Assembly: GCF_028867935.1 (NCBI RefSeq)
Contig: NZ_JAPQNS010000012.1
Coordinates: 178,883-242,882 of the forward strand
DNA from: Flavobacterium sp. SUN052
GTDB lineage: Bacteria > Bacteroidota > Bacteroidia > Flavobacteriales > Flavobacteriaceae
Reading direction: 5' to 3'
DNA: 64,000 nt
The translations under genes and the position numbers were made by a program. Position 1 is the stretch's first letter; every line of letters begins with the position of its first letter. A model generated the notes under the pieces. It searched no databases, was not told the DNA's origin, and saw nothing but the letters and a program-made list of their open reading frames with translations. Positions 10,575-63,875 of this stretch are shown in pieces.

Positions 10575-10661
10575 GGATATTGGATGCTGGATATTGGACA
10601 TTGACCACAGTCTACTCTGATTATCTACAGGCTAACATCCGATATCCAGCGTCCAATGTCC
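10575..10661. repeat. Inverted tandem-repeat element A (7-bp unit)
   Basis: The left arm (10575-10603) is four copies of a 7-bp unit (GGATATT, GGATGCT, GGATATT, GGACATT). The right arm (10636-10661) is an inverted copy, pairing over 24 positions with three G-U wobbles. The spacer is about 35 bp. The element lies between two divergent promoters, so it is not a terminator for either flanking gene. Confidence 0.85.
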
Positions 10662-10672
10662 GATTTCATCAC

Positions 10673-10680
10673 TACTTTTG
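10673..10680 (+). promoter_or_regulatory. Bacteroidetes -7 box for ndk
   Basis: TACTTTTG is an exact TAnnTTTG match, 29 bp before the ndk ATG. The predicted transcription start is near 10687. No clear -33 box is visible because the upstream sequence is the right arm of the inverted repeat. Confidence 0.65.
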
Positions 10681-10708
10681 CACAAAATTTTCTTTGGCAA
10701 CCAACCGA

Positions 10709-11128
10709 ATGGCAACTAATCGTACGTTCACCATGATCAAGCCCGACGCCGTAGAGGCCGGGAACACTGGTGCAATTATTAAAATGATTGAAGAGGCAGG
10801 GTTCCGCATCGTCGCGATGACGAAGACGCAGATGAGCAGCGAGCGGGCCGGTCAGTTTTATGAAGTTCACGCGGAGCGGCCTTTTTATCAGGGCTTGTGC
10901 AGCTACATGTCGTCGGGGGCAATTGTTCCGATGATTTTAGAAAAAGACAATGCCGTAGCTGATTTCCGTAAGTTGATCGGCGCAACCAACCCGGCTAACG
11001 CTGAGGAAGGCACCATCCGCAAACTGTATGCAACGTCGATCGAAGCCAATGCTATTCACGGTTCTGACTCCGACGAAAACGCGCAGATTGAAGGCAGCTT
11101 TTTCTTCTCACGGACAGAGCAGTTTTAA
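10709..11128 (+). CDS. ndk: Nucleoside diphosphate kinase
   Basis: A 139-residue enzyme that transfers the gamma-phosphate between nucleoside triphosphates through a phosphohistidine. The N-terminal [13 protein letters not shown], the [14 protein letters not shown] segment, the [14 protein letters not shown] loop and the active-site NAIHGSDS (phosphorylated histidine) are all present. The ATG at 10709 is chosen because it gives the family's normal length and follows the promoter box; the long upstream frame extension runs through the inverted repeat and is not coding. Transcription ends at an unusual pair of interleaved hairpins. Confidence 0.97.
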
Positions 11129-11138
11129 AAAACTAGTA

Positions 11139-11190
11139 ACTCGGTCATGCCAGGCTGATGCTCACCGAGTATCAGCCTATTTTTTTATTT
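11139..11190 (+). terminator. Terminator with two interleaved stems after ndk
   Basis: Stem 1 is ACTCGGT (11139-11145) with ACCGAGT (11164-11170). Stem 2 is AGGCTGAT (11152-11159) with ATCAGCCT (11171-11178), directly followed by a T-run from 11180. The stems interlock, so they are mutually exclusive or form a pseudoknot. Stem 2 is the terminator-like one. Confidence 0.7.
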
Positions 11191-11258
11191 TTATGGTCTC
11201 AATACCAGACGTACACTTACTTATATAGAAACCCCACAAACCCATCTATTGAACTATT

Positions 11259-12773
11259 ATGAACCGACTTCTCCTCTTTATTTCCCTCACCTTTTTTATC
11301 GGTTGCCGTACCTCTGCGCCAACCATTAAAACGGGCACCTCTACTCAGGCTGTTACCCTACTGCATATTAATGACGTTTACGAAATCGCTCCTCTCGACA
11401 ATGGGCGTGTGGGGGGTATGGCCCGCGTAGCCAACCTGTATCAGACACTCAAAAAGGCGAACCCCAATACTTACTTTTTTCACGCGGGTGATTTTCTGAG
11501 CCCATCAGTAATTGGCACCCTCAAAAACGATGGTAAGACCATTCGCGGCAAACAAATGGTCGACGTGATGAACGTGGCCGGGGTGCAGTATGTAACGTTT
11601 GGAAATCATGAATTTGATCTCGACGATAATGAGCCGACCAATCTTCAGGAGCGTATCAACGAATCAACGTTTCAGTGGTTTGTGGCCAACGCCCGCCAGA
11701 AACAGGGAGCCGATTTTGTGCCGTTTGCCAAAGTCAGCAATGGACAACGAGCTGAGTTTCCAACCTCGTTTGTGTTGCAAACGCCCGGTGGCAAGATTGG
11801 TGTGCTGGCCGTAACGATTCCCGTTAACAAGCCATACGTGCAGATCACCGATCCTATCGAAGTCGCTAAAGCGGAATATGAGCGACTGAAACCACAGTGC
11901 GACGCCGTCATTGCACTAACACATATTAACATCGCCGACGACCGCCGATTGGCGCAGGCCGTACCGGGGCTCGCCCTCATCATGGGCGGGCACGATCACG
12001 ACCACATGCTCGAACGAGTGGGTAACGTGGTCATTGCCAAGGCCGATGCCAATGCCCGGACGGTGTATATTCACCGGCTCTCTTTCAACGCCAGTAAACA
12101 ACTAAACGTAGTTTCCGAACTTAAAACTATTGACCCTACTACGCCCGACGACAGCCTGACCAATGCCGTAGTAACACGCTGGCAGCGGATTGCCGATCAG
12201 AGTTTCCGTAATCTGGGTTTCGACCCAAATGAGATTGTGACGGTGGCCAAAGAACCGTGGGATGGACGCGAGTCGGCGGTGCGTAACCAGCCTTCGCTCA
12301 TGACAGAAGCGATTGTGAAGTCGATGCACGCTGCCTACCCAACGGCCGATGTCGCCTTGTTCAATGGTGGGTCGGTTCGGATCGACGATGTGCTGAAAGG
12401 AAATATCACCCAGTATGACATTGTCCGCATGTTACCGTTTGGGGGCGGTATTCAGCAGGTAACAATGACCGGCTCCTTGTTGCAGCAAGTGCTTACCTCT
12501 GGCCGGTTGAATAAAGGGAAAGGGGGGTTTTTGCATATAGATGGCTCGCGGTATGACGACAAAACGCAAACCTGGTTCATCAAAGACAAAGCCCTACTCA
12601 GCGACAGTACGTACACCGTGGCTATTCCTGACTTTTTGATGACCGGTAAAGAGTTTGGAATGAGTTACCTGACGCCCGAAAACCCTGGCGTTAAAGCCAC
12701 TGAGAAACCAGCCGCCAACGATCCCCGGACGGACATTCGGAAAGTGCTGATCGCGTATCTGAAAAAATCATGA
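11259..12773 (+). CDS. 5'-nucleotidase / UDP-sugar hydrolase-type lipoprotein
   Basis: A 504-residue exported enzyme that should dephosphorylate extracellular nucleotides, feeding nucleoside salvage. The signal peptide ends in FFIGC, a lipobox. The N-terminal metallophosphoesterase domain carries the metal ligands in LLHINDVYEI, HAGDF, GNHEFD, ALTHI and GGHDHDH. The C-terminal 5'-nucleotidase domain has NGGSVRIDDVLKGNITQYD and MLPFGG, which form the substrate pocket. The stop codon overlaps the end of the converging histidine kinase gene by 6 bp, so there is no room for a separate terminator between them. Confidence 0.93.
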   Translation: MNRLLLFISLTFFIGCRTSAPTIKTGTSTQAVTLLHINDVYEIAPLDNGRVGGMARVANLYQTLKKANPNTYFFHAGDFLSPSVIGTLKNDGKTIRGKQMVDVMNVAGVQYVTFGNHEFDLDDNEPTNLQERINESTFQWFVANARQKQGADFVPFAKVSNGQRAEFPTSFVLQTPGGKIGVLAVTIPVNKPYVQITDPIEVAKAEYERLKPQCDAVIALTHINIADDRRLAQAVPGLALIMGGHDHDHMLERVGNVVIAKADANARTVYIHRLSFNASKQLNVVSELKTIDPTTPDDSLTNAVVTRWQRIADQSFRNLGFDPNEIVTVAKEPWDGRESAVRNQPSLMTEAIVKSMHAAYPTADVALFNGGSVRIDDVLKGNITQYDIVRMLPFGGGIQQVTMTGSLLQQVLTSGRLNKGKGGFLHIDGSRYDDKTQTWFIKDKALLSDSTYTVAIPDFLMTGKEFGMSYLTPENPGVKATEKPAANDPRTDIRKVLIAYLKKS

Positions 12774-27893: not shown

Positions 27894-27987
27894 GGTTCAA
27901 GTTTCATAATTACGCCGTTTCAGGTTTCATGCCATGCTGTTACAAAGCGGTCAGCTGGAAATCTGAAACGGCGTAGTCATTGAAACC
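27894..27987. repeat. Inverted tandem-repeat element B (7-bp GTTTCAN units)
   Basis: The left tract (27894-27930) has GGTTCAA, GTTTCAT, then GTTTCAG, GTTTCAT. The right tract (27963-27987) is its inverted copy. Core pairing is a perfect 13 bp (27911-27923 with 27963-27975) plus outer GTTTCA/TGAAAC. It lies between two co-directional genes and lacks a T tail. Confidence 0.75.
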
Positions 27988-34326: not shown

Positions 34327-37300
34327 TCAGCGAGGTCCTTCACGCACTTGTGCATTCGGAGTCAGACCATCTAGTATCGGAGTGCCCAGCCGTAATACCG
34401 AATTAGGTGAGATAAACATCAGTATTCCCTGTTTTTTCAGACTTGCCGCGTAAGCAATTGTATTCGTTGGAATAGTAATCATGTGGCCCGCCAAAATCGT
34501 GACGACATCGGCTTCGGTAGGAACCCGGTTGCACGACCAGACGGTTGGATCGGTCCACAGGCCGGTTTTGACCGAAATCATTGTCAAACAGGACACGTTG
34601 GCGTTGGCAGTAGTTGTCAGTACAGCTGAGTTGCTGAAAGCAGAGCTGGCCGTTCCCGAACAAACCGCACGAATCTGCCACTCGTATGTGGTTCCGCCGG
34701 ATAAGCCCGTAAGCGTGTAGGTTGGGCTGGCCGATGCGGATGCTACCGAGGCTGTTATCCAGGTGGTAGCTCCCGTTTGACGGTGACGCACCTCGTACCC
34801 TAAGTCGGTAGCGCCCTGCCAAATCAATTTTGCCGATGTGGTGCCAACAGCTATTGCACTAAGACTATGTGGAACCGTACAGGCGGTGGTGAAATACGAT
34901 GATGCTGAATAGGTGGAACTGCCCGAAGGTGAGCAAACTGCCCGGACCTGCCATTCATAACTGGTATCATTAGTTAGCCCATTTATATCAACGAAAGTTG
35001 CCCCCGCAACGGTGGTTCCACTCTCGGCCCAGGTGGTGGTACCGGTAAGCCGCAGCCGAATCTGGGCAGCACTGCCCGGTGTGCTAGTCCAATACAACCG
35101 AATGGAACTGGCCGTCTGATTACCGGAGCCATTGATTAGGGGAGTGCCACATTGCGTTGTAAACGAACGGGGAGCGGAGTAAGCCGAGGTACTTGAATTG
35201 GGGCAACTTGTCTGAATTTTCCACTCATAGGACTGACCCATCGCCAGATTAGACAGGGTATAGTCGGAGCAACACGTATTACTAACTGTTACCCAGGTAG
35301 CGGCTCCTACTGCTCGCCATTGCAAATTGTATAGAAGCGAGGTGTTACCTCCGTTACTCATATAACTCCACCGCAACACCGCCTGATTGGGGGCAACTAA
35401 CTCCGACTGGCCCAAAGGAATAGGACAATTCATGGTAAACGTCCGCTCGGCTGACCAATCGGAACTGGCCCCATCGGAGCAAATGGTACGGATTCGCCAC
35501 TGGTACGTTTTCCCTAATTCAAGCCCTCTGACGTAGTACGGAGAACAGCACGAAGCTGGCGCCTGGGTCCAGTTTGCGGCCGAATTTTCTTTCCACCCAA
35601 TCTGATACGAATTCCCCGTAGTAGTCGCCCACCGGACTTCAATGGAGTTTGTGGTCTGGTTGGCTTCGGTTAAACTGCTGGGTATGGTACACGGCACCGT
35701 CACTAATACGGTTCCGCTGGCAGGCAAGGTGCCACATGCATTCGAAACGGCACCAAATAGTAGTGTACTCGAACTGGGTACTGATGTGGTGAACATAACG
35801 GGTGAGGTTGTGATACCGTTGTATCCGGTCAGGTAGGTACCATTTCGGTATACCGTAAAATTCCAGGGTGTTTGTCCAGTTAAAGCCACCGTAAGCGAAA
35901 CGGGCTGGCCAGCGGCTACCGTCTGAGATAGTCCCAACAAAGTAGCAGTACCACACGAAACGGTCTGAAACGTAGCCGAACTCGCCCAGTCAGATGCCTG
36001 TCCATTCAGGCAGTTGGCCTGTACCTGCCATTCGTAGGTGGTTCCCGACAGCAGGTTAGTCATGAAATACGCGGGCGACGTAAGGTCGGTAACGGTTGTC
36101 CAGCCAAGGCTACCCTGCGGCCGCCAGCGCAACGAATACGAATTTACCGTGGCATCGCATGTCCACGACAAGCCAGCCACGCTGCCTGTCAGATTCGAGG
36201 CAGCTAGTGAAACGGGAATAGGGCAACTACAGGTAGCAGTTATTCTAATGGGGACGCTGGGTGTATTGTTTGTGGCGGGGCTCGACGATACCACCCGCAT
36301 CTGATACCCATTACCGACTGGCACAGAACCAGGAATGCTTATTGTGAGCGAACTACCCGCCGAAGCCGTCACCGAACCAAGCTGAGTTGGCAGGAGTGAA
36401 AATACCCCAGCCGCATCCGACAGTTCTACGGTAAAAACGTTAGCAGGACCAAAATCACCTGTCGTTCCAAACGTGAGCGGGAGGGCTGTATTCAGACAGG
36501 CCGGGTTGGCAACCTGCGTAATCTGAACAATGTTGGCCGGATACACCGTCAACCCGTAATCTTCGGTTTCGCTATATTGATAATTTCCACAGGCATCGGT
36601 AGGCACTGTGCTATAGGCCACAATGACCCGCATCGCCAACGGCCCCGGTGTAACGGTTGCTGGAATAATCAGGCTTCCCGAAAAAGAAGCGGTGAGGGTA
36701 TTCGGAGTGAAGAATAGTCGCTCACTGGCTTCAAAAGCATCATTCCGGTTTACGTCAAGCCACACGCCTACGCCTTCATTGTACACCGTACTCAACAACG
36801 TTCCGCTAAATGAATAGGGTTGGCCCGCTATTACTGGCGCCATCGGGCTGGTGTATTGCTGGTACCCTTCCACCGAACAACCGCTACTTGCACTCATAGG
36901 CACACTGTTAAACATGAAACTGTCGAGCCCGTCTGAATCGGCACAGCCCCGCAACGTCACTGGTCGGCAGGTGCCCCTAGTTGAAAACGCAGTGCCGGGT
37001 ACGTACGTCAGGCTACCTGTTGCGGTGCAAACACTCCGAACCTGCCATACATAGGTTGTACCTTCAGTAAGGCCGGTTAGCACATACGTCGGTACGGTCA
37101 GACCATTCACAGTCTGCCATACGTTGGCACTCTCCGCCCGCCAGATCAGATCGTACGTACGGCCAACACCTAGATTTGACCAGTTCAGCACTGCCGACGT
37201 GCCGGTGACGGTTGCTGAAACCAGACCCGTTGGGGCCGGGCAACTGGTGGTGAACGTTTGCCCCGCATAGGCCGAGTTTCCAGTGGCGCACACGGTCCGA

Positions 37301-40352: not shown

Positions 40353-40455
40353 ATTGCTGGCGCTTTAGGCCTTCGACTCCGCTCAGGCTGACAGGAAACG
40401 CTAAAACTCGTTGTCAGCCTGAGCGGAGTCGAAGGCCCATGCGTCAGCAATTTTT
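40353..40455. repeat. Long palindrome C (26-bp perfect arms), putative terminator
   Basis: Perfect 26-bp inverted repeat (40368-40393 with 40412-40437), extended outward by TTGCTG.CGC/GCGTCAGCAA, and followed by TTTTT. It lies between convergent genes. The core CTTCGACTCCGCTCAGG is, to my recollection, a palindrome sequence found dispersed in many bacterial genomes; a search is needed to confirm that. Unlike elements A, B, D, E and F it has no obvious internal tandem unit. Confidence 0.7.
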
Positions 40456-47066: not shown

Positions 47067-48305
47067 ATGTTTAAAAACAAACAGCTTTGGCTGATTTATG
47101 CCATCATACTGGTTGATATAGTGGTAGCCAACGGACTGGGGCCATTAGTTGCCAAATACGTAGAAGATCTCCCGGCAAAAGCTGTTTTCATTACTGGCGG
47201 CACGGCCATTGCCATCGGTGCGCAATTGGCCACAGCGCCCGCCCTGGGCGCTTATTCCGACAAACGCGGCCGACGACCCGTCGTCTTTCTGACGGCCTTT
47301 GTCTCACTAATAGCCAGCCTTTTTCTTTTACCCGTTAAGGCATGGGGCTTCATAACCAACCGCGTAACTGAAGGCTCTACCAACTCGATGTATTCCGTAT
47401 TGAAGTCTGCCGTTACGGATCTGACACCAAAAGAGGATCTGATGCGTACAACGGGAGTTACCACGTTTATTTTGGGAGCAGCCGGAATACTAGGCCCTAT
47501 GTTAACGGCGGGCCTGCTCATTGCCTTTCCCGAGACCCGCAAAGACCCTCAGCCCGTTGTACTGGTTATGATTTCACTGGCCGTGCTGAACATTATCCTT
47601 GCTTTCTTCTTTCGGGAAACTCAGGATAAAAAGGAAGACATCAGCAAAAAAGAACTCAAAGAAAAAGCAGTCAGCGCGCTAAAAATCAAAGCCTTGTGGA
47701 AAAAGTTGGATAAAGTTAATGAGCAGGTACCTGGTTTTAAATCTATTTTCACGCTGAGTTTATTAGGCAGTTTAGGCACGGGTTATTTCAACTATTTTAT
47801 CGCCTTTCTGACTCAAAGTGAGCTAAAAATGGAGCCTCTCCAAACGGCTTATTTCTTTATTTTCTACGGTCTACTGTCCTTAGCGGCCAACTTCGCCTTT
47901 TTCACCTATTTCGTTCAGCGAATCAACAAACGCATCACCCTCCTGATTCTGGCAGTGACAGGGATTGCTACGCAGGTTCTGTTCGCCTTCTCCGAACACT
48001 CCGAAACCATGCTTTATACAGTGGCGGGCGTCGATGCCGTTACGGTAACCCTTATTGGTGGGCTGGTTGGCGGACTGCTCTCAAAAATGGTCAATGAAAG
48101 CGACGGACAGGGCGAACTTTTCGGTGATGTGCAGGGCCTGGGCGGGGTTGCCAGCTTCTACACCACCGTTGTTAACAGCGCATTGGCGGGTGTCAGTGCT
48201 AAAGCGCCTTTCTTCTGGTTTGCGGCCTGTATGGCCGTTTTAGCGGTCCTATGTATCCGCTTACCCGCCGACGCCCGCAAAGTTACCGACACCAACGGCA
48301 ACTGA
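47067..48305 (+). CDS. MFS transporter (TetA-like)
   Basis: A 412-residue inner-membrane transporter with about twelve transmembrane segments. The MFS loop motif between helices 2 and 3 is GAYSDKRGRRPVVF, a match for GxxxDxxGRRxxL. The central loop between the two halves is rich in lysine and glutamate (KKELKEKAVSALKIKALWKKL). The TetA-like drug-efflux subgroup is the closest match, but the substrate is not identifiable. The gene ends 113 bp before the thrA start; the spacer carries the thrA promoter and an inverted repeat. Confidence 0.88.
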   Translation: MFKNKQLWLIYAIILVDIVVANGLGPLVAKYVEDLPAKAVFITGGTAIAIGAQLATAPALGAYSDKRGRRPVVFLTAFVSLIASLFLLPVKAWGFITNRVTEGSTNSMYSVLKSAVTDLTPKEDLMRTTGVTTFILGAAGILGPMLTAGLLIAFPETRKDPQPVVLVMISLAVLNIILAFFFRETQDKKEDISKKELKEKAVSALKIKALWKKLDKVNEQVPGFKSIFTLSLLGSLGTGYFNYFIAFLTQSELKMEPLQTAYFFIFYGLLSLAANFAFFTYFVQRINKRITLLILAVTGIATQVLFAFSEHSETMLYTVAGVDAVTVTLIGGLVGGLLSKMVNESDGQGELFGDVQGLGGVASFYTTVVNSALAGVSAKAPFFWFAACMAVLAVLCIRLPADARKVTDTNGN

Positions 48306-48320
48306 AATGCGGCTAAGGTG

Positions 48321-48328
48321 TATCTTTG
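48321..48328 (+). promoter_or_regulatory. -7 box of the thrA promoter
   Basis: TATCTTTG is an exact TAnnTTTG match. The predicted transcription start is around 48335, which is the first base of inverted repeat D; no -33 TTTG is visible. Confidence 0.65.
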
Positions 48329-48334
48329 CCCCTT

Positions 48335-48407
48335 AGTGAAAGAGCGAAAGAGTGAAAGAGCGTTCACCTTTTGGATTGTCACTCTTTCACCCTTTCGCTC
48401 TTTCACT
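48335..48407 (+). repeat. Inverted tandem-repeat element D (8-bp unit), 5' UTR of thrA
   Basis: The left arm (48335-48362) is GTGAAAGA, GCGAAAGA, GTGAAAGA plus GCG. The right arm (48380-48407) is its inverted copy, pairing 26 of 28 positions with a 17-base loop. The right arm ends 11 bp before the thrA ATG, and the left arm begins at the predicted transcription start, so the mRNA would start with this hairpin. Confidence 0.85.
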
Positions 48408-48418
48408 CATTACCGTAC

Positions 48419-50890
48419 ATGAACGTTTTAAAGTTTGGCGGCACGTCCGTAGGCTCCGTTGAGAGTATAAAGCAGGTTATTCAGATTATTGATGATGCCT
48501 CACGCGGCACCGAAACCACCGTAGGTCGCAATATTGCCGTTGTGTTCTCCGCAATGGGGGGTGTTACCAACCAACTGATCGAAATTGGCCGGATGGCCGC
48601 TAGTGTAAATTTAGATTACCTCGATCTGGTACGGCGCATCGAAGACCGGCACTTTAATGTGGTGAAAGCGTTGATTCCAATAAAGGAACAGAGTAAAGTG
48701 TTCGCCAACATTCGGGGGGTAATCAACGAACTCGAAGACCTGCTTCGGGGCGTTTCATTGATTCGCGAACTCTCTCCCCGCACGCTCGACCTGATCACCA
48801 GCTTTGGCGAACGCCTGTCAACCCTGGCGATTTCGGAGTGTATTCGCTCGCGGGGCTTATCGGCCCGGTATTGCGATGCCCGCAACCTGATAAAAACTGA
48901 CGCTCAGTTTGGGCAAGCCGAAGTAAACTATACGCTTACCAACCAACTAATTCGCGACTATTTCGCCAGTTCAAACAGCATCGAACTGATAACGGGCTTC
49001 ATTGGCTCTACCGAGAAGGGAGAAACTACCACGTTAGGTCGCGGTGGCTCCGACTATACAGCCAGTATTGTGGCAGCAGCCCTGGACGCCGACATGATCG
49101 ACATCTGGACCGATGTAGACGGTATGATGACGGCTGACCCGCGCAAAGTGACTAACGCGTTTAATATTCCGACCATTACCTACGCCGAAGCCATGGAGTT
49201 GAGCCACTTCGGCGCCAAGGTAATTTACCCGCCAAGCCTGCAACCAGCCTTTGCGCGCAACATTCCAATTCGGGTCCTCAACACCTTTAATCCAACCCAC
49301 GCCGGCACGGTGGTGAGCCGCACCGCCGACCGTCGACAATACACCATCACGGGTATTTCGAGTATCGACGATGTGGCGCTGGTAAACGTGCAGGGTTCAG
49401 GTATGATTGGCGTGGCCGGTGTATCAGCTAAATTATTCGGTGTACTGGCCCAGCACCGGATCAGTGTGATTTTGATCTCGCAGGCATCATCGGAGCATTC
49501 CATCTGTTTTGCAATCGATCCACGCTCTGCTGATCGGGTTAAAGCTATTCTGGACGATGAGTTTGCGATTGATATTGCCAGCGGTCACGTAGACAATATC
49601 AGCATTGAGCGCGAGTTGTCAATTATAGCAACGGTGGGCGAAGGTATGCGTAAATCATCGGGTATTGCGGGGAAACTGTTTTCGGTTTTGGGTAAAAACG
49701 GGGTCAATATTGTGGCCGTAGCCCAGGGATCATCGGAGATCAATATCTCGATCGTTATTGCCAAAACAAACATCTCAAAGGCCTTAAACGCGCTTCACAA
49801 CGTGTTTTTCCAGTCGGAAGCCCGTATGTTGAACATATTCCTGGTCGGAACAGGTCTGATTGGCCGGACGCTGCTCACCCAGATTCACAACCAGTTCGGC
49901 TACCTCCGCGATGAGAAAATGCTGAAGATTTGCCTGGTTGGCGTGTCAAATACCAAAAAGATGCTGCTCGACCCCAAAGGCATCGACCTCGACGATTGGC
50001 GCGAACGGCAACTGACGGAAGGAGTTACCACCTCATTGCCCGCTTTTGTTGAGAAAATAAAATCGTACAACCTGCCCAACTCGGTCTTCATCGACTGCAC
50101 GTCAGACAAGGACATTGTACAGTTTTACGACTCGTTGCTGGATGCCAACGTATCAGTGGTAACACCCAACAAAGTAGCCAATTCCGGCTCCTACGCCGAA
50201 TACCGCCGACTGCAACGCACCGCCCTAAACCGGGGTGTCAAGTTCCTGTATGAAACGAATGTGGGTGCAGGTCTGCCAATCATCAATACCATTCAGGGTC
50301 TGATGCTGGCTGGTGACCGGTTTATCAAGATCGAAGCCATTCTGTCAGGAACGCTCTCGTATATCTTCAACTCGTTTAAATCGGGGACGAAATTCGTCGA
50401 TGTAGTGCGCGAGGCCAAAGAGAAAGGCTATACTGAACCAGATCCACGCGACGACCTCAGCGGACAGGATGTTGGCCGTAAAATCCTGATTCTGGCTCGC
50501 GAAGCCGGCTTCGCCCTCGAACCAGACGATGTAACGATTAACAATTTGCTGCCGCAAGCCTGCATCGACGCGCCTACCATCCCCGCTTTTTTCGATGAGC
50601 TAGAAGCGAACAACGCCTATTTTGAGAGCCTGTTGACCGAGGCCGAAGCAAATGGCCAGAAACTTCGCTACGTGGCTACCTTCGAGAACGGCAAGGTTAC
50701 CATTGAACTTCGGGCCGTTAGCGCTGATCACCCTTTCTATACACTTTCGGGGGCCGACAACATCATTTCGTTCATCACCGAGCGCTACAAAGAGCGCCCT
50801 TTAGTGATCAAAGGCCCTGGTGCCGGTGCCGAAGTGACAGCCTCCGGCGTGTTCGCCGACATGGTAAGCATTGGTAGTTATTTGGGCTGA
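48419..50890 (+). CDS. thrA: Bifunctional aspartokinase / homoserine dehydrogenase
   Basis: An 823-residue fusion catalysing two steps of the aspartate pathway to threonine and methionine. The ATG at 48419 (MNVLKFGGTSVGS) is the family start; a longer frame runs back through the repeat. The aspartokinase domain has KFGGTSVGS, GGVTN, FGERLS, GRGGSDYTAS and MTADPRKV. Two ACT domains in the middle (GVSAKLFGVLAQH, GIAGKLFSVLGKN) bind the feedback regulators. The C-terminal homoserine dehydrogenase has GTGLIG, TPNKVANSG, YETNVGAGLPI and EPDPRDDLSGQD. Other threonine genes are not adjacent here. Confidence 0.96.
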   Translation: MNVLKFGGTSVGSVESIKQVIQIIDDASRGTETTVGRNIAVVFSAMGGVTNQLIEIGRMAASVNLDYLDLVRRIEDRHFNVVKALIPIKEQSKVFANIRGVINELEDLLRGVSLIRELSPRTLDLITSFGERLSTLAISECIRSRGLSARYCDARNLIKTDAQFGQAEVNYTLTNQLIRDYFASSNSIELITGFIGSTEKGETTTLGRGGSDYTASIVAAALDADMIDIWTDVDGMMTADPRKVTNAFNIPTITYAEAMELSHFGAKVIYPPSLQPAFARNIPIRVLNTFNPTHAGTVVSRTADRRQYTITGISSIDDVALVNVQGSGMIGVAGVSAKLFGVLAQHRISVILISQASSEHSICFAIDPRSADRVKAILDDEFAIDIASGHVDNISIERELSIIATVGEGMRKSSGIAGKLFSVLGKNGVNIVAVAQGSSEINISIVIAKTNISKALNALHNVFFQSEARMLNIFLVGTGLIGRTLLTQIHNQFGYLRDEKMLKICLVGVSNTKKMLLDPKGIDLDDWRERQLTEGVTTSLPAFVEKIKSYNLPNSVFIDCTSDKDIVQFYDSLLDANVSVVTPNKVANSGSYAEYRRLQRTALNRGVKFLYETNVGAGLPIINTIQGLMLAGDRFIKIEAILSGTLSYIFNSFKSGTKFVDVVREAKEKGYTEPDPRDDLSGQDVGRKILILAREAGFALEPDDVTINNLLPQACIDAPTIPAFFDELEANNAYFESLLTEAEANGQKLRYVATFENGKVTIELRAVSADHPFYTLSGADNIISFITERYKERPLVIKGPGAGAEVTASGVFADMVSIGSYLG

Positions 50891-54077: not shown

Positions 54078-54151
54078 TAGGGAATAAAAGGAGAAGGGTG
54101 GCTATCGCAAACAAAAACGTGCGATAGCCACCCTTCTCCTTTTATTCCCTA
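54078..54151. terminator. 32-bp perfect hairpin between recA and the hydroxylase gene
   Basis: Perfect 32-bp inverted repeat (54078-54109 with 54120-54151), loop of 10 bases (AACAAAAACG). The arms hold AAAAGGAG/CTCCTTTT, so on both strands the 3' arm ends in a T-run. It lies between convergent genes (stop codons at 54067 and 54156) and fits a bidirectional terminator, though the stem is unusually long and perfect. Confidence 0.8.
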
Positions 54152-54930: not shown

Positions 54931-56274
54931 TCAATTCTGTTTATTGACAACTAAAGTGTCTGCTACCCTCTCCTGCATATGGGCAAAATTTCCGGCGGGC
55001 AGTTTTTGACGAATAATGAGCCGGAGTGAGTTGTCGTAACTGAGGTAATTCCACATCCAGTTGATGAGAATCAGGAGCCGGTTTTTAACGCCTACAATGG
55101 CCATCAGGTGAACCATCAACCAGGTAAGCCAGGCTAAAACACCGCTAAACTTCAGAAAAGGCAAATCGACTACGGCCAAACCACGCCCGATGGTGGCCAT
55201 AGTGCCAAGGTCTTTGTATGTAAATTCCTGCATGGGCTCGCTTTTTAGGAGTTTCATCAGGTTTTTACCCAGCAATTTCCCCTGTTGAATGGCTGGCTGG
55301 GCTATTTGCGGATGTCCATTCGGCCATACATCACCCTCAGCCATCATGGCTACGTCGCCAATGGCAAACACATCCGTAAAGCCCTGAACCTGATTGAACC
55401 GGTTGACTGTTACACGCCCTCCGCGACCAATTACCTCAGCTGGTAAACCGGCCAACGGACTAGCTTTCACTCCGGCGGCCCAAATCAGGTTATTCGACCT
55501 GATGGTTGTCCCATCGTTCATGTACACCATTTTCCCGTCAAAATCTTTCACACGGGTGTTCAGGCGCACAATCACCCCAAGATCGCGCAAATAAGCTTCC
55601 GATTTTTTGTGCGAATTCTCTGACATTGGCCCCAGCAATTCACCACCTGATTCAATCAGGTAGATTTGCATCATTTCAAAGTCTAATTCGGGGTAATCGC
55701 TGGGTAGCACCGTCCGTTTCATTTCGGCAAGGGTACCGCACAACTCAACACCGGTTGGCCCCCCACCTACCACAACCACATCCATCAGCCCGTCTCGCTC
55801 GTCGTTGGTCTCGACGCTTAGGGCATCCTCGAAGTTTTGCAGAATCCGGTTTCGCAACGCAATGGCCTCCGAAACCGATTTCATGGGCAAAGCCTTCTCA
55901 ATGATGTTTTGCTGGCCAAAAAAGTTGGTATCCGCACCGGTCGCCATTACCAGATAATCGTAGGGTATTGGCCCAAGGTCGGTATCTACTGCTTTGTCGG
56001 CCGTGCGCACACCGGTCACGTTAGTAACCCGGATGTGTACGTTCTCGCAATCACCAAAAACAGCCCGCAGTGGAAACAAAATTGAGTTTGCCTCCAAACC
56101 TGCCGTGGCAACCTGATAATAGAGGGGTTGAAATTCGTGGTAGTTAGTCCGGTTGATGATCACAACCTGAAACTCACGGCGATTGGCCAACATGCGGGCT
56201 AGCCGCAGTCCGCCAAAACCTGCACCAACGATAACCACCCGCGTCCGGTCGGTTTGGGGAATATTTGGATTCAT
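54931..56274 (-). CDS. Type II NADH dehydrogenase / FAD-dependent oxidoreductase
   Basis: A 447-residue membrane-associated flavoprotein. Two Rossmann GxGxxG sites are present, one for FAD (VIVGAGFGGLRLARM) and one for NADH (VVVGGGPTGVELCGT). Further family marks are FAIGDVAM, LIWAAGVKASPL and a C-terminal hydrophobic region (GVLAWLTWLMVHLMAIVGV) for membrane attachment. It should pass electrons from NADH to quinone without pumping protons. The upstream bshA gene lies 98 bp before it on the same strand, with inverted repeat E in between. Confidence 0.92.
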   Translation of the reverse strand: MNPNIPQTDRTRVVIVGAGFGGLRLARMLANRREFQVVIINRTNYHEFQPLYYQVATAGLEANSILFPLRAVFGDCENVHIRVTNVTGVRTADKAVDTDLGPIPYDYLVMATGADTNFFGQQNIIEKALPMKSVSEAIALRNRILQNFEDALSVETNDERDGLMDVVVVGGGPTGVELCGTLAEMKRTVLPSDYPELDFEMMQIYLIESGGELLGPMSENSHKKSEAYLRDLGVIVRLNTRVKDFDGKMVYMNDGTTIRSNNLIWAAGVKASPLAGLPAEVIGRGGRVTVNRFNQVQGFTDVFAIGDVAMMAEGDVWPNGHPQIAQPAIQQGKLLGKNLMKLLKSEPMQEFTYKDLGTMATIGRGLAVVDLPFLKFSGVLAWLTWLMVHLMAIVGVKNRLLILINWMWNYLSYDNSLRLIIRQKLPAGNFAHMQERVADTLVVNKQN

Positions 56275-56283
56275 AAAAGCAGT

Positions 56284-56434
56284 TAACAGTGATCAGCTAA
56301 CAGCCAACAGTACCAGTCGCGAACTGTAAGGGCGTATAACCAGCCTAACTCGTTTTTCTTGTGGATAACTCTTTATACGTGCAAACGGTTACGATTCTCC
56401 GCTGCTACTGTTGGCTGCTCACTGTTCGCTGTTA
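56284..56434. repeat. Inverted tandem-repeat element E (7-bp unit), overlapping bshA
   Basis: The left arm (56284-56314) reads TAACAGT, GATCAGC, TAACAGC, CAACAGT plus ACC. The right arm (56404-56434) is its inverted copy, matching 25 of 31 positions, and lies inside the last codons of the bshA frame. The spacer is about 90 bp and contains a DnaA-box-like TGTGGATAA at 56360-56368. Confidence 0.75.
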
Positions 56435-57545
56435 AAACCCGCTCGTAATGATGCTCGTACATAGGCAGGATTTTAGAAAGCTCAAAATCTTTGGCCCGTG
56501 CCAGAGCGTTTTCCTTAAAACGGGGCAAATTGGCGTCATCTAGCACGTACAGGGCGTTCTTTACCATATCAGCGACATCGCCCACAGGGCTCAGGAAACC
56601 CGTAACGCCTGGTATGTTCAGTTCGGGGAGGCCACCCGCATTTGACGTAATCAGAGGCACTTCGCAGGCTAGCGCTTCGAGGGCAGCCAGACCAAAGCTC
56701 TCGTTCTCAGATGGCATCAAAAACAAATCGGCTACGGACAGAATCTCCTCAACCGCATCGAGCTTACCTAGAAAACGCACATCCTCACTGATACCCAATT
56801 CCCGGCAAAGCTGCTGAATACGAGTCCGTTCGGGCCCGTCACCAGCCAGCAGCAATTTCACGGGGGTTTGCTGACGAAGATGATAAAAGACCATCACGGC
56901 ATCGTCGATCCGCTTTACCCGGCGAAAATTGGATGTGTGAACAACCAGTTTCTCGCCGTTAGGGCAAATGGCTGTTTTGAAATGGTCTTTGTTCTGGCGT
57001 TTGAAGCGTGTCAGATCAATGAAGTTCGGAATTACCTCCACTTCCCGGGTGATGGCAAAGTGATTATAGGTGTCCTGACGGAGGTTTTCCGACACCGCCG
57101 TAACGCCGTCAGACTCGTTAATGCTAAAGGTAACAACTGGCTCGTACGAAGCATCTTTACCAACTAGCGTAATATCGGTGCCATGGAGCGTGGTTACTAC
57201 CGGCACATGCCGACCCTGCGTTCGCAAAATCATTTTGGCCATATAAGCCGCCGATGCGTGGGGAATAGCATAATGCACATGCAACAAATCCACGTTTTCG
57301 TTCATCACTACATTCACCATTTCGCTGGCCAAAGCCGTTTCGTAAGGCGGAAACTGAAACAATGGGTATGATGGAATATTGACCTCGTGGTAGAAAACGT
57401 TCTCGTTGAAAAAGTCGAGCCGGGGTGGCTGCTGATACGTGATAAAGTGAATCTGATGGCCGAGTTGGGCCAATGCTTTGCCCAACTCGGTAGCGACAAC
57501 GCCACTTCCGCCAAATGTCGGGTAACAAACAATACCAATTTTCAT
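56373..57545 (-). CDS. bshA: N-acetyl-alpha-D-glucosaminyl L-malate synthase
   Basis: A 390-residue GT4 glycosyltransferase that makes GlcNAc-malate, the first step of bacillithiol synthesis. Family features: MKIGIVCYPTFGGSGVVATELG, HVHYAIPHASAAY, TTLHGTDITLVG, the acceptor-side SENLRQDTYN and the donor site MPSENESFGLAALEALACEVP. It acts in the cytoplasm on UDP-GlcNAc and L-malate. The last residues (about 18, ANSEQPTVAAENRNRLHV) are encoded by the right arm of inverted repeat E, so the C-terminus appears to have been extended into a repeat. Start at 57545 is the family start. Confidence 0.93.
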   Translation of the reverse strand: MKIGIVCYPTFGGSGVVATELGKALAQLGHQIHFITYQQPPRLDFFNENVFYHEVNIPSYPLFQFPPYETALASEMVNVVMNENVDLLHVHYAIPHASAAYMAKMILRTQGRHVPVVTTLHGTDITLVGKDASYEPVVTFSINESDGVTAVSENLRQDTYNHFAITREVEVIPNFIDLTRFKRQNKDHFKTAICPNGEKLVVHTSNFRRVKRIDDAVMVFYHLRQQTPVKLLLAGDGPERTRIQQLCRELGISEDVRFLGKLDAVEEILSVADLFLMPSENESFGLAALEALACEVPLITSNAGGLPELNIPGVTGFLSPVGDVADMVKNALYVLDDANLPRFKENALARAKDFELSKILPMYEHHYERVLTANSEQPTVAAENRNRLHV

Positions 57546-59331: not shown

Positions 59332-59350
59332 TTTGCAACTTTGCTGCAAA
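59332..59350. promoter_or_regulatory. Fur-family-like palindrome upstream of merC
   Basis: TTTGCAACTTTGCTGCAAA is a 19-bp near-perfect palindrome (arms TTTGCA/TGCAAA) about 50 bp before the MerC start. The TTGCA..TGCAA core resembles Fur/Zur-type operators. Identity of the regulator is an inference. Confidence 0.55.
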
Positions 59351-59403
59351 TAACGGCGTTGGGGATTTACGTGTCCAACAAACCAGATTAGCAGCGGTTG
59401 TTT

Positions 59404-60185: not shown

Positions 60186-60194
60186 TAGTAATTT

Positions 60195-60917
60195 CTAATA
60201 GCCTCGGCGCTGTCGCAGTTCGGGACGAGCAGGCAGCAACGCGTTGGTTTGGATGTATTCAAATAACGTTTGGCCTAGCAAATCTCCGGCCACGGGACTA
60301 AGTTGCCCCAACTGTGCATCAACGAAAAACTCTTCGCCTTGACCAATCACTGTTGTTGTATCGAAAACCGGGACCATGTGCCGCCGACCGTATTGCCGGA
60401 ACAAGTCCTGGCCTTTTTGACGAAGCCAGTTTGTTACTGGGTTCGGATGAGGCATGGGCGTTAGCACTACCAGCCGCCGACGGTAGGGCTGTAAGTAACA
60501 AGCCAAATTAGCTAGTTGAGCCTCGACCTCCCTGAGCAAACCAATCTGACCAATTGATGCCAACAGCCAGAGAGCGGCCATTTTACTATACGATCTGATT
60601 CTATCGTACAAGGTGTTGCTATACGAAGGCAAATAACTCGTAACACGGCCATTTGATGGCTGTTGCAGCCGGGTATGGCCAAGCTCAAGTAAAATCAGAT
60701 CGAATCGACTTAGATTCAGTCGTTGTAATAAGGGCAGGGCAACGTGAATATCAACAGGAGCATGGCATTCGATATGGACCTGCCAACCCGCCCGCTGCAA
60801 TTTCCCAACAAGCTGAGGGACATAACCCCGACTGCCACCCCGCACCGAATGCCCCGAATAGGCCTCAGCGGAGTTCTCTCCTCCCAAGATAAGTATCGAA
60901 AGTACTTTTGATGTCAT
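60195..60917 (-). CDS. Possible SGNH/GDSL-hydrolase-like protein
   Basis: A 240-residue protein with an N-terminal block LSILILGGENSAEAYSGHSVRGG that resembles the SGNH nucleophile block (serine in an ENS or HSV context), then FDLILLELGHTRLQQP similar to the block with the conserved Asn/Gly. A matching catalytic histidine block is not obvious, so the family assignment is weak. No signal peptide. It is in an operon with the Rieske gene (9 bp apart). Confidence 0.5.
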   Translation of the reverse strand: MTSKVLSILILGGENSAEAYSGHSVRGGSRGYVPQLVGKLQRAGWQVHIECHAPVDIHVALPLLQRLNLSRFDLILLELGHTRLQQPSNGRVTSYLPSYSNTLYDRIRSYSKMAALWLLASIGQIGLLREVEAQLANLACYLQPYRRRLVVLTPMPHPNPVTNWLRQKGQDLFRQYGRRHMVPVFDTTTVIGQGEEFFVDAQLGQLSPVAGDLLGQTLFEYIQTNALLPARPELRQRRGY

Positions 60918-61111
60918 ATAAACCGGGCATTCAGGCCAAATAACCAGTCCCGTTAATGATCAATACGTCAGTCGATTTGGGAGTGTTGCAAGCAATGCAG
61001 AAATGCGCTCCTTGCAGCCTTTTTTTCTAAAAAACGAAACCATTGCAACAATCTATCCACGTACTGCGTATCTAGAATAGAATACACTCTACACTCTTAA
61101 ACGTCAGACTG

Positions 61112-61708
61112 TTGCTATTCCGTAAGCGATTATTCACGGACGATGACCTGGTTAGCGTCATCGAAGCCTGCCGGATGCAAAATCCGCAGGCGCAACGTGT
61201 GCTGTTCAAACAATTTTTCGGATACGCCAAGAGTATTTGCCTTCGGTATTCGGCCACAACGGAAGAAGCCGAGGAAGTACTAAATGAGGGTTTCCTGAAA
61301 GTGTTTCAACACCTACATCAGTACGATGTGTCGTTGCCGTTCAAAGCATGGTTGCGAACAATTATGGTTAATACGGCCATTAGTAACTACCGTAAATATC
61401 ATAAACACGCGGCCAATTTTGCCTTAGAAGATGTTCCTGAAGCCCCCTTTGACGATCAGGTAGTGGATCGGATTACAGCAGATGAAATTCTGGCTATTGT
61501 GCAGCTGCTTCCTCCGGCCTGGCGAACGACGTTTAACCTTCATGTGGTGGACGGTTACAGTCTTCGCGAGATTGCCGAGATGCTCGATGCCAACGAAGCC
61601 ACAATCCGGTCTCACTTTTTGCGAGGTCGGCAACGATTACAGCAACTGATAAAACAACATTACCCACACATCACATCAACTAACTTTGGCTACTATGAAA
61701 CCCGATGA
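61112..61708 (+). CDS. ECF-family RNA polymerase sigma factor
   Basis: A 198-residue sigma-70 factor of the extracytoplasmic function group. Region 2 is NPQAQRVLFKQFFGYAKSICLRY through LNEGFLKVFQHLHQYD (region 2.2/2.3), and region 4 has the HTH VVDGYSLREIAEMLDANEATIRSHFLRGRQRL. The start is a TTG at 61112, since no in-frame ATG follows an upstream stop at 61073 before the first conserved block. Its stop overlaps the next gene by 14 bp, so the two are coupled. The partner is expected to control its activity. Confidence 0.92.
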   Translation: MLFRKRLFTDDDLVSVIEACRMQNPQAQRVLFKQFFGYAKSICLRYSATTEEAEEVLNEGFLKVFQHLHQYDVSLPFKAWLRTIMVNTAISNYRKYHKHAANFALEDVPEAPFDDQVVDRITADEILAIVQLLPPAWRTTFNLHVVDGYSLREIAEMLDANEATIRSHFLRGRQRLQQLIKQHYPHITSTNFGYYETR

Positions 61709-63323
61709 TTTCTCCGACCAGATCAGGCGGAAATTAGAGAGCGTCGAGCCTGAATTTCGTGAAAAAGACTGGACCCGGATGCAACAGGCATTGGGCCATT
61801 CGACGCCGGTGTTTGCTATTGGTACGAAAGCCGGATTGATGGCTGCCGCCAGTATTGCGGCTGTGATGGCATTTGGGGGCGTCGCATACCAGCAATATCA
61901 CGCCAATAAGCAACTCCAGGAGCAGGTTCGAACCTTGAATCAAACTGTTAAAATGCTTCGGCAATCAGCCGATGTGGCACACACACAGGTCAAGCCGGCC
62001 TCCGCAGTTCCACCCGACACGGTTTACCTGACCCGCGACGTGGTTCGGTATGTGGCTGTGCCCGTTGAGCGAAAAAACACCGACGAAATTGCTGAAACAA
62101 ATTCACCATCAAACCCTAACGCTACCGAAGCACCCTCTACTTTCAACCATCGTCCGTCGGCTGACATTACGTCAACAGGTGGTAATCGGCAATTCGCGAA
62201 CCCGAACAGTTCTCTGAATTCGTCTGAAAGCCGCCCAACGAATAGCCAGAATCGGACCAATACGGGCTACGATACCCAGACTGGTACGGCTCAAACTAAC
62301 GAAGCAACAGACGTGGCTGGCAACAGCGGGGGGTCGGGCATTAACAAAGGTAACCGAATTGCGGGCAACAGCCGAAGCAACACCAGGGGCGTTACTGGCG
62401 GTAACAGCAGAAACGGAAACGGATCTGTTGGAATGAACGGGGCAAACAATAGCGATTATACGGTTCAGAACGGCAACATCGTGTCTGGCTCTCCAGAGAC
62501 GAACAACACCGGCTCAGCTCCTGAAAGTGCCGCAACAAACAGTAACAACACGGTTCAGTTGTCATTGCTGTCAGGTCGGCCCTTCATACACGACACGACA
62601 TACTACCAGGAAGGCATGGCCCGCACAGCTCGCCGAATACGCCGATTGCTGAGTACGCCTTCGCCATCGGGCGCGGCATTGGCTAAAGTGGTCATCAACC
62701 GAAATGAACCTAACTGGCTATTCCGAATTGGTCCCGGCGGTAATGTAGGCGGGCAACAGTTGGGTGTAGGCGTCTTCGGAGAATTTCGGTTAAACAGCCA
62801 CTGGCGTATTGGTGTGGGACTCACATCGCTGAAGCTCGAAGGAGAATCGTACCTGACCGATATAGACTACGGCAAACGGACCAAACAGGACTTCAGGAAC
62901 AACTTCGCCCCCTCTATTGATCCACGTCACGATATTATCAACATTACCCCCAAGGGTTCGTCCTGGCAGGTGCCTATTATGTTGAGTTATCGGTTTGGGC
63001 TAGGCAGTGGCTGGTCGCTGGTACCTTCGGCCGGAGTTAATCTGAGCTTGAGCAATCACGAGGAAATTGGGTACGCCTATTTTCGTGGCCCTGGATTAAT
63101 CCAACCGGTAACCCTGATCAGAAAGCTGCCTCAGCAAATGCTACATGCCGGTTCAGCCGCTATTTATTTGGAAAAAAACTGGGGCGACTGGGCCTTGCAA
63201 CTCGGTCCATATGCCTCAACACCAGTGAGTAGCGAACCAAGTCGGTTAAACACAACCACAGCGGGTGCTGCTGCAAGGCTTTATTATCAGTTCGACTGGA
63301 AAAAGAAGTCATCGCTTCGGTAA
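61695..63323 (+). CDS. Sigma-factor-linked trans-envelope protein with beta-barrel C-terminus
   Basis: A 542-residue protein coupled to the ECF sigma gene (14-bp overlap, ATG at 61695). Order of domains: a cytoplasmic N-terminus (MKPDDFSDQIRRKL) with a possible sigma-binding helix, one transmembrane segment (about residues 42-59), a coiled coil, a very long linker rich in N, S, T, G (about residues 120-290), and a C-terminal domain with alternating beta strands typical of outer-membrane PorT-like proteins (FRIGPGGNVGGQQLGVGVFG, LHAGSAAIYLEKNWGDWALQLGPYA, LYYQFDW). Proteins with this mixed topology are known in Bacteroidetes but their mode of action is not settled. Confidence 0.7.
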   Translation: MKPDDFSDQIRRKLESVEPEFREKDWTRMQQALGHSTPVFAIGTKAGLMAAASIAAVMAFGGVAYQQYHANKQLQEQVRTLNQTVKMLRQSADVAHTQVKPASAVPPDTVYLTRDVVRYVAVPVERKNTDEIAETNSPSNPNATEAPSTFNHRPSADITSTGGNRQFANPNSSLNSSESRPTNSQNRTNTGYDTQTGTAQTNEATDVAGNSGGSGINKGNRIAGNSRSNTRGVTGGNSRNGNGSVGMNGANNSDYTVQNGNIVSGSPETNNTGSAPESAATNSNNTVQLSLLSGRPFIHDTTYYQEGMARTARRIRRLLSTPSPSGAALAKVVINRNEPNWLFRIGPGGNVGGQQLGVGVFGEFRLNSHWRIGVGLTSLKLEGESYLTDIDYGKRTKQDFRNNFAPSIDPRHDIINITPKGSSWQVPIMLSYRFGLGSGWSLVPSAGVNLSLSNHEEIGYAYFRGPGLIQPVTLIRKLPQQMLHAGSAAIYLEKNWGDWALQLGPYASTPVSSEPSRLNTTTAGAAARLYYQFDWKKKSSLR

Positions 63324-63341
63324 TACAGTTGCTTTTTAGTG

Positions 63342-63386
63342 AAACGGCCCCAAATCGTTGTTATTTACGATTTGGGGCCGTTTTTT
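63342..63386 (+). terminator. Strong intrinsic terminator
   Basis: Perfect 16-bp stem (63342-63357 with 63368-63383) with a 10-base loop, followed by TTTTTT, 19 bp after the end of the trans-envelope gene. Confidence 0.92.
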
Positions 63387-63404
63387 GCATGATAAAGTTT
63401 CACT

Positions 63405-63767
63405 ATGCCTAAAAATGTTCTTGGCGGCTCGCTCACCTGCTGCTGCACCAAACCCATGACGGGTTTTTACCGCGATGGATTCTGTCGTACCGACGAGCAA
63501 GATCAGGGCCGGCATGTGGTATGTGCCATCATGACTGAATCGTTTCTGAATTTCACTCGTTCGCGCGGCAATGATCTTTCGACACCCAGACCCGAGTACC
63601 AGTTTCCCGGCCTGAAACCCGGCGACCGCTGGTGTTTGTGTGCCCTACGCTGGCGTGAGGCTTATGACGCGGGCAAGGCTCCCCCCGTATTACTGTCCTG
63701 CACGCATGAGCGGGCACTGCAATACATTGACTTAGAAGCGTTAAAGAGCTTGGCATTTGAGGAATGA
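63405..63767 (+). CDS. DUF2237 family protein
   Basis: A 120-residue protein that matches DUF2237 along its whole length: NVLGGSLTCCCTKPMTGFYRDG, VVCAIMTESFLNFTRSRGNDLSTP, FPGLKPGDRWCLCALRW and the terminal PPVLLSCTHERAL. Function is unknown. The conserved cysteines (CCCTK near the N-terminus; CLC in the centre) suggest metal binding. It is preceded by a terminator and followed by inverted repeat F. Confidence 0.88.
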   Translation: MPKNVLGGSLTCCCTKPMTGFYRDGFCRTDEQDQGRHVVCAIMTESFLNFTRSRGNDLSTPRPEYQFPGLKPGDRWCLCALRWREAYDAGKAPPVLLSCTHERALQYIDLEALKSLAFEE

Positions 63768-63771
63768 GATG

Positions 63772-63875
63772 ATTGGGGTAATTGGGGTAAATAGGTAACT
63801 CGAATTATCTACTTACCACAAGCACCTATTTACCCAATTACTGCAATTACCCAATTGCCTCTTTACCAATTACTT
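63772..63875. repeat. Inverted tandem-repeat element F (9-bp unit)
   Basis: The left tract has ATTGGGGTA twice (63772-63789) followed by AATAGGTAA. The right tract (63824-63875) is an inverted, degenerate series of 9-bp units on the minus strand (TTGGGTAAA, TTGCAGTAA, ATTGGGTAA and others), pairing with one indel. It lies between the DUF2237 stop and the end of an opposing gene. Confidence 0.7.

Follow-up and report, generated by a model that had tools for sequence, protein, structure and literature searches.

Intergenic hairpins with short tandem units in their arms in a Rudanella-like genome and its relatives

The 64,000-nucleotide stretch analyzed here (the window; contig NZ_JAPQNS010000012.1, positions 178,883 to 242,882) contains five intergenic inverted repeats that a sequence-only reading had described as alike in design and unrelated in sequence: a short unit in tandem, a spacer, and the same tract in inverted orientation. 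Two origins had been suggested, a shared generating process such as fold-back DNA synthesis on slipped repeats, or a protein that recognizes the structure. The window raises the question of whether bacteria carry a class of elements that is united by architecture, and how such elements may be made and renewed. We found that intergenic hairpins built from short tandem tracts are a real class, and that they are frequent in the genome to which the window belongs (the host genome, G000), in Rudanella paleaurantiibacter, and in Fibrella.

The host genome comprises 8.1 Mb in 38 contigs. The aspartokinase-homoserine dehydrogenase of the window was 96% identical (best segment) to that of Rudanella sp. 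CAN_BIN22 (locus L025, genome G031), 93% to that of R. paleaurantiibacter (L053, G032), and 93% to that of a Cytophagales metagenome-assembled genome (L071, G033). Because of the identities of 96% and 93% to Rudanella, the host was taken as Rudanella-like, and the kinship implied by its genus label was left unused because it is at odds with these values. In the set of genomes carrying the same genus label (2.2–5.7 Mb), the window glycogen synthase was matched, weakly, in two of 30 others, and 28 gave no match. Further comparison genomes were those of Fibrella forsythiae (L033, G034), Spirosoma 48-14 (L031, G035), Arsenicibacter rosenii (L051, G036), and Larkinella soli (L045, G038). The scans covered 1.244 Mb of the host genome (about 15%) and 0.15–0.4 Mb of each comparison genome.

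Frequency and units of the periodic hairpins

All five inverted repeats were present at the positions given by the sequence-only reading. An internal period in the arms was confirmed at four of them (period 7–9), whereas the element at 27894 is a hairpin without one. Self-match over the first 30 nt was 74% at lag 7 (10575), 77% at lag 8 (48335), 65% at lag 7 (56283), and 67% at lag 9 (63772); at 27894, it was at most 36% at every lag from 6 to 11, and the sole tandem piece was GTTTCAG GTTTCAT. When the window was scanned under strict ungapped conditions, five inverted repeats were detected, against none in each of three shuffles. These included 10575, 48335, and 56284; the other two (40368–40437 and 54078–54151) have non-periodic arms, and the hairpins at 27894 and 63772 do not reach the strict ungapped cut. 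The RNA folding of each of the five elements beat 200 of 200 dinucleotide shuffles, with z values of −7.9, −7.9, −9.8, −4.1, and −5.2 in locus order, the fourth element being folded over 56280–56429 only.

We counted inverted repeats with arms of at least 18 bases, classified arms with a period of 6–11 as periodic, and derived the expectation from column-shuffled arms. The host sample held 130 inverted repeats, against none in the shuffles of the same analysis and one in a separate 400-kb shuffle, and 36 of the 130 had periodic arms (4.5 expected). Periodic arms were similarly found in 21 of 47 inverted repeats in 400 kb of R. paleaurantiibacter (4.5 expected; the shuffle held one inverted repeat) and in 16 of 40 in 200 kb of Fibrella (1.7 expected). 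The corresponding number was 1 of 14 in 200 kb of Larkinella (0.3 expected); for G010 and G022, two genomes with 35% GC sampled at 200 kb apiece, the numbers were 0 of 9 (0.5 expected) and 2 of 7 (0.8 expected). In 150 kb of Escherichia coli K-12, the single inverted repeat was non-periodic. Intergenic DNA of the host contained 210 tracts of period 7–10 versus 61 after shuffling. An inverted partner within 220 nt was detected for 78 of the 210 versus two in the control, and the majority of host tracts are thus without a detected partner. Partnered tracts numbered 52 of 116 in R. paleaurantiibacter (3 in the control), 33 of 39 in Fibrella (0), 2 of 17 in Larkinella (0), 15 of 63 in G010 (6), and 9 of 69 in G022 (8). 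At loci of the aspartokinase region, we found one periodic inverted repeat in 3 Rudanella loci, one in 14 Spirosoma loci, two in 6 of the Fibrella group, two in 8 Larkinella loci, none in 29 Dyadobacter loci, and one in 20 others; the density in Spirosoma is therefore low in this region. A common design with differing sequence is thus far above chance in the host, R. paleaurantiibacter, and Fibrella, and hardly or not so in Larkinella, E. coli, and the two low-GC genomes. A distinct class would be put in doubt if shuffled sequence and unrelated genomes had such structures equally often; they did not.

The period-6 elements (n=5, two of which are CCCCTCTCC elements) and one period-11 element were dropped from later counts, which reduced 73 elements to 67. 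Among elements with z of at least 3.3 in both arms, the periods were 7 (22 elements), 8 (13), 9 (3), 10 (3), 5 (1), 13 (2), and 14 (6). Within the window, the units are indeed entirely different, as stated earlier; across the genome, this is no longer true, and several units form recurring families. In the 1.24-Mb sample, GGATNTT-, AACAGTN-, and AATTGGGT-like units were each found at several loci. In the host, R. paleaurantiibacter, and Fibrella, GAGTGAAA-like units were counted 7, 2, and 1 times, GGATNTT-like units 5, 1, and 1 times, AATGTAN-like units 1, 4, and 0 times, and GTTTACT-like units 1, 1, and 5 times, with loose clustering (some units had undetermined positions) and genome samples of unequal size. 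Lineages thus appear to favor different units. Loci with near-identical units shared polarity in 74 pairs and had opposite polarity in 13.

The 141-base stretch around 48335 gave at least 64 BLAST matches in the host genome (40 of 85 candidates scored) and occupied at least 39 distinct places, itself included, when matches within 300 nt were merged. The exact 25-mer GTGAAAGAGNGAAAGAGNGAAAGAG was present in 2 of 296 genomes in a phylum-level sample, the host included; in the second genome (G289), five of six matches lay at periodic hairpins with differing loops. A search of a plasmid collection with two of the five window elements gave no match at E ≤ 0.01. Long CCCCTCTCC arms characterize a second dispersed element, which was noted at C1:210240–210388 of the host and in relatives; it was absent at the corresponding site of G031 and had many matches in G033.

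Turnover, placement, and anatomy

Eight host sites (window loci 1–4 and C1:115013, 195987, 205586, and 206416) were compared with the three Rudanella relatives wherever both flanks or the gene allowed anchoring, which gave 16 comparisons. Window locus 2 (27894) was included though non-periodic; other non-periodic and period-6 sites were left out. Across a wider set, 175 elements were tried and 44 element-by-genome rows were anchored. The 16 comparisons comprised four hairpins with the same unit (one of them, 56283 in G032, by gapped alignment only), four sites with nothing (0–12 nt), five different hairpins (one of them a 12-bp stem), and three sites with other sequence or a tract without a significant partner. 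Therefore, the same unit, a different unit, and none, the outcomes that the sequence-only reading had set out for orthologous spacers, all occurred. At the 10575 site, G031 has a hairpin with the same unit, G033 a 7-nt empty site, and G032 147 nt of other sequence. The 27894 site holds other hairpins in G032; in G031 and G033, only 12 and 4 nt, respectively, lie there, and the site is empty. At the 56283 site, the element of G032 is shorter and was missed by the ungapped finder. At C1:205586, the host has a GGATTTT hairpin where two relatives carry GAGACGC hairpins and Fibrella a period-7 hairpin with the unit GAAAGGG. Conversely, three elements of R. paleaurantiibacter, at 294806 (period 7), 265058 (period 11), and 359978 (below the periodicity cut), correspond to 18, 5, and 8 nt in the host, and the 18-nt site is still similar to one arm. 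Since the same gap can hold a different repeat or none in a sister species, the design may outlast the sequence.

The leader of the aspartokinase-homoserine dehydrogenase gene offers a series of such states at one place. A period-7/8 tract was present in the 75 nt upstream of the ATG in 15 of 23 relatives from Rudanella, Spirosoma, and the Fibrella group (1 of 23 in a control stretch), in 3 of 8 Larkinella (control 0), in 2 of 29 Dyadobacter (2), and in 4 of 19 others (0). These counts concern 79 of 80 loci, L027 being left out because its contig begins at the gene. Inverted partners were detected for six of 16 leader tracts, including that of the window (host, L028, L031, L033, L036, and L053; p ≤ 0.01), with one more at 0.027 (uncorrected values from 300 shuffles). 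At one and the same place, the tract therefore occurs either by itself or as one arm of a hairpin. The unit, present in both arms, changes with the species: GTGAAAGA in the host, AATGAATAATGG in R. paleaurantiibacter, and AATGAGTG in Fibrella.

Placement was assessed with a simple custom caller of open reading frames (ORFs). The 67 elements of period 7–10 lie at gene junctions: 45 between tandem, 13 between convergent, and seven between divergent genes, with one in a gene and one at an edge. The median distance to stops was 5 bp and that to starts 15 bp. For the 144 non-periodic elements (81 tandem, 55 convergent, 5 divergent, 3 in genes), the medians were 20 and 115 bp, respectively. Divergent placement was found for seven of the 67 elements versus 191 of 651 intergenic regions of at least 100 bp. 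A neighboring stop codon lay inside the element in 13 of 67 periodic and 9 of 144 non-periodic cases. We considered whether a period not divisible by 3 served to place stops in all frames; this idea was rejected, as confining the view to intergenic DNA would lead to the same picture. At C1:195987–196112 of the host, G033 has two tightly joined genes, and the tandem unit of the host seems, when the alignment is inspected by eye, to be the source of the stop codon. A run of at least five T behind or five A before the stem, within 8 nt, accompanied 21 of the 67 elements (one-sided background in random intergenic 8-mers, 7.2%). A terminator consensus scan of 48200–48500, which covers loops of 3–8 nt and is blind to the 48335 hairpin, gave no match.

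The 5' arms of the periodic elements are G-rich. G exceeded C in 32 and C exceeded G in four of 36 host elements; the counts were 18 and 2 of 21 in R. paleaurantiibacter and, more weakly, 9 and 3 of 16 in Fibrella. For non-periodic inverted repeats with loops of at least 14, they were 25 and 21 of 49, 9 and 3 of 14, and 6 and 6 of 14, respectively. Solitary tracts were G-rich near stops (19 to 7), C-rich near starts (32 to 7), and unbiased far from genes (27 to 32). In element-free windows, the background before host starts was itself C-rich (441 versus 185 G-rich), and that behind stops was even in the host (165 G, 172 C) and Fibrella, and G-leaning in R. paleaurantiibacter (106 to 68). The two arms of one locus match above chance. 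Among the arms of periodic loci, the partner arm was the best match in 27 of 33 host, 15 of 18 R. paleaurantiibacter, and all 16 Fibrella cases (58 of 67 in total). In 163 partnered tracts, unit variants were common to the paired position in 416 of 868 instances (48%) versus 982 of 4652 (21%) at whole-unit-shifted registers; this test does not require arm identity and picks the best register, which mildly favors a match. Among 46 pairs of elements with the same unit, strong loop similarity was confined to one trio and the other loops were unrelated.

The trio lies in R. paleaurantiibacter (G032:C26, scan positions 36658, 48142, and 216149, L229–L248 joined). Its three hairpins are of the AATGAACAATGTAAAATG type and their loops are related, as in a family of miniature inverted-repeat transposable elements (MITEs). 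In Fibrella (G034:C44, L269–L278), 18 of 32 hairpins with loops of at least 8 have in common a core on the side of the loop (TTGCGCTGCT / GCTTCGCT type), with differing outer units; the expression for this core was composed after viewing the elements and matches 2.5% of random intergenic 22-mers. We also tried GCT[GT]ACGC as a common inner core. Among periodic elements (loops of at least 8), it occurred in 1 of 32 in the host, 3 of 18 in R. paleaurantiibacter, and 2 of 15 in Fibrella (0.5, 0.3, and 0.2 expected), and among non-periodic ones in 5 of 68, 2 of 19, and 2 of 17 (0.6, 0.5, and 0.3 expected). It is enriched and present in few elements, and was rejected as a common denominator.

Possible origin and known systems

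We tentatively favor, with somewhat less than even confidence, an origin in which short tandem tracts at gene junctions slip and are copied by fold-back, while units also spread from locus to locus. In its favor are the arm matching above chance, the loops that vary independently of the units outside the one trio, the tracts and changing units of the aspartokinase leader, the turnover at orthologous sites, and the published template switching that creates and repairs hairpins. A short tract, mostly of 7–8 bp units, would arise or grow at a junction by slippage. The nascent strand would then fold back or switch template and leave an inverted copy, such that the arms share irregularities unit by unit. 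The hairpin might afterwards be repaired, lengthened, overwritten with a different unit, or lost, and units would move between loci of one genome. Elements would persist where they are nearly harmless or useful, namely, directly behind stops and before starts. Most of these junctions join co-directional genes, and transcription across them would yield intercistronic hairpins. A broader proposition, which is possible though doubtful, is that a sequence-blind process in Rudanella and related Spirosomataceae rebuilds junction hairpins from G-rich tandem tracts, such that architecture, place, and polarity are inherited and the unit is exchanged, a homology of design. If this account is correct, bacterial intergenic hairpins may be born and renewed without a transposon, the sites described above would be natural before-and-after cases of fold-back DNA synthesis, and sequence-based searches for repeat or RNA families may miss elements that are alike only in design; the window had no Rfam match at the gathering score.

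Several observations weigh against fold-back copying. The recurrence of units at many loci requires a copying step between loci, beyond local slippage. Template switching can write and mend inverted copies in one event, and the printed model predicts an excess of G and U in the 5' arm (Monttinen and Loytynoja 2022, PMC8794818). A exceeds T in the 5' arms of the host and R. paleaurantiibacter (T exceeds A in Fibrella), and hence the U excess is missing in two of three genomes, while the G excess is weaker in Fibrella. The hairpins treated in that paper are those of RNA genes, and tandem units in the arms are unmentioned in the passages concerned. Arm matching is partly ascertained, since the elements were found via arm identity, and the less biased register test gives a weaker signal. 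The 10575 arms are as alike between G031 and the host as within one genome, and comparing arms inside one species with arms of different species gave a mixed picture overall, which was not taken as proof. The trio with MITE-like loops also does not fit. Template switching would produce the inverted copy in one event from a parent lacking it; at the aspartokinase leader, both the solitary tract and the hairpin occur, and either may be the older state there and at other sites.

Chance or base composition is a practically negligible explanation: although 61 tracts of period 7–10 survive the shuffling of host intergenic DNA, neither the inverted repeats, nor their periodic arms, nor the partnered tracts do so at a comparable rate (130 versus 0 or 1, 36 versus 4.5, and 78 versus 2). 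It is conceivable, and in our judgment rather unlikely, that the elements are a set of mobile MITE-like or repetitive extragenic palindromic (REP)-like sequences whose arms diverge rapidly and whose movement depends on one or more transposases acting in trans. The 48335 unit is abundant in the host and rare elsewhere, relatives have empty sites, Y1 transposase matches were obtained in 12 of 12 genomes searched, and the Fibrella core and the trio with common loops are of the kind expected. However, direct repeats at the edges stayed at the level of shuffled partners, with one abutting 7-nt case among the 67 elements, and none was clear in the empty-site alignments, which led us to reject a MITE with target-site duplication; whole-length sharing was likewise rejected, being limited to the one trio. 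REPs driven by a REP-associated tyrosine transposase (RAYT) fared no better. Their tags were without excess in the 67 periodic elements (GTAG in 3 and CGTC in 2, with random rates of 4.5% and 3.2%), the loops are mostly unrelated, and the TCGCG(T)TAGCGACC-type core of the hairpins beside three RAYT genes occurred in none of 74 periodic elements. The periodic elements are thus not degenerate copies of tagged REPs, in agreement with the sequence-only reading. The possibility that selection for a stable intercistronic RNA hairpin (3'-end protection, processing, or termination) is reached repeatedly from any sequence is an unlikely full explanation. The proximity to stops and starts, the 45 of 67 co-directional placements, the scarcity of divergent ones, strong folding, the substitution of other hairpins at the same site, and T/A runs above background agree with it, but 46 of 67 elements lack such a run, the hairpin is dispensable at the four empty orthologous sites, and an RNA role alone leaves the internal periodicity unexplained. 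Fold-back copying is thus the likeliest of the mechanisms weighed and unproven; of the two origins suggested earlier, it is preferred over a structure-recognizing protein.

The basic architecture has a precedent, and the earlier supposition that no described family has this property has to be withdrawn. The GGGNATC heptamers of Xanthomonas and Nostoc, the closest of the systems compared here, form intergenic tandem tracts near ORF ends, mostly between aligned ORFs and with divergent ones under-represented, in sense orientation behind stops and antisense before starts. Two Xanthomonas genomes contain 70 and 75 instances of two convergent tracts that make up an inverted repeat, and tract length and sequence vary between species at one place (Rehm et al. 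2015, PMC4692102). The present elements likewise have short G-rich tandem units in intergenic DNA, mostly between aligned ORFs, and form inverted pairs; downstream of stops, their G-rich strand is the sense strand. The relevant passages of that paper describe one unit type per organism, a G-quadruplex reading, and few inverted pairs in Nostoc, whereas here many units (periods 7–10) occur per genome, inverted pairs are prominent, and units or whole elements are replaced at orthologous sites. Thus, the number of units and same-site replacement are new, and the architecture with one unit is known. TAACTGA heptamers, the next closest, also form intergenic tandem tracts, many near starts, in organisms that include five Bacteroidetes; two Cyanothece strains differ by indels in 7-nt steps, and the spacer of a close relative has no obvious repeats (MacGregor 2015, PMC4679880). 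As far as the relevant passages show, they differ in having one unit, direct repeats, and a single inverted case in the main genome. REPs associated with RAYTs (Di Nocera et al. 2013, PMC3733652) are likewise short palindromes in intergenic DNA, found mostly where the neighboring genes are unidirectional or convergent; the GTAG/CGTC tag is not enriched here, and the RAYT-flanking hairpins of this group are of another type. Stem-loop sequence families (Cozzuto et al. 2008, PMC2267715) are also repeated intergenic stem-loops, possibly acting as RNA; in the passages concerned, they are clustered by sequence, whereas the present elements have tandem arms and loops that mostly differ between loci. 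Among the titles of the matches listed in a literature search, which had most subscription journals outside its scope, there was no multi-unit tandem-in-hairpin family in Spirosomataceae.

The window loci and RAYT-adjacent hairpins

The hairpin at 10575..10661 has period-7 arms (GGATATT) and a 39-nt loop, and lies between a DHH phosphoesterase ORF (9506–10552, minus strand) and an NDK gene (plus strand). The ORF of the latter is listed from 10454, and its true start is probably behind the element. The hairpin at 27894..27987, without a significant internal period and with two adjoining GTTTCAN copies, is located between the stop of the glycogen synthase gene (27884) and an NFACT-type gene. That at 48335..48407, with period-8 arms (GTGAAAGA) and a 21-nt loop, ends 11 nt upstream of the aspartokinase-homoserine dehydrogenase ATG (48419); ahead of it lies a TATCTTTG motif, a putative Bacteroidetes −7 box. 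The element at 56283..56435 has period-7 arms (AACAGTN) and a long interior, and is placed between a glycosyltransferase ORF (minus strand), the end of which (56373) is within the element, and an NDH2-type oxidoreductase ORF (54931–56274, minus strand). The fifth hairpin, at 63772..63875, has arms of period 8–9 (ATTGGGGTA) and lies 3' of the stop of a DUF2237 gene (63767); position 63875 is 125 bp from the contig end, and no orthologous site was anchored for this element.

The tags of REPs were also counted in non-periodic elements (GTAG in 12 and CGTC in 4 of 77). Among 14 Y1 transposase loci viewed, TCGCG(T)TAGCGACC-type hairpins were present at L294, at L295, and at the host locus L301, and the others had other hairpins or none (none at L291 of the host). 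At L301 (G000:C12 near 156882), a RAYT-like gene adjoins clustered TCGCGTTAGCGACC-type hairpins whose ends are CTAC/GTAG; such a layout is typical of REP-RAYT loci. The non-periodic inverted repeat at 40368–40437 of the window is a perfect 26-bp repeat (GGCCTTCGACTCCGCTCAGGCTGACA) that is dispersed, with close relatives at, for example, C33:350321 and C1:487063. The hairpin at 54078–54151, with perfect 32-bp arms and a 10-nt loop, lies between two convergent ORFs and is perhaps a bidirectional terminator.

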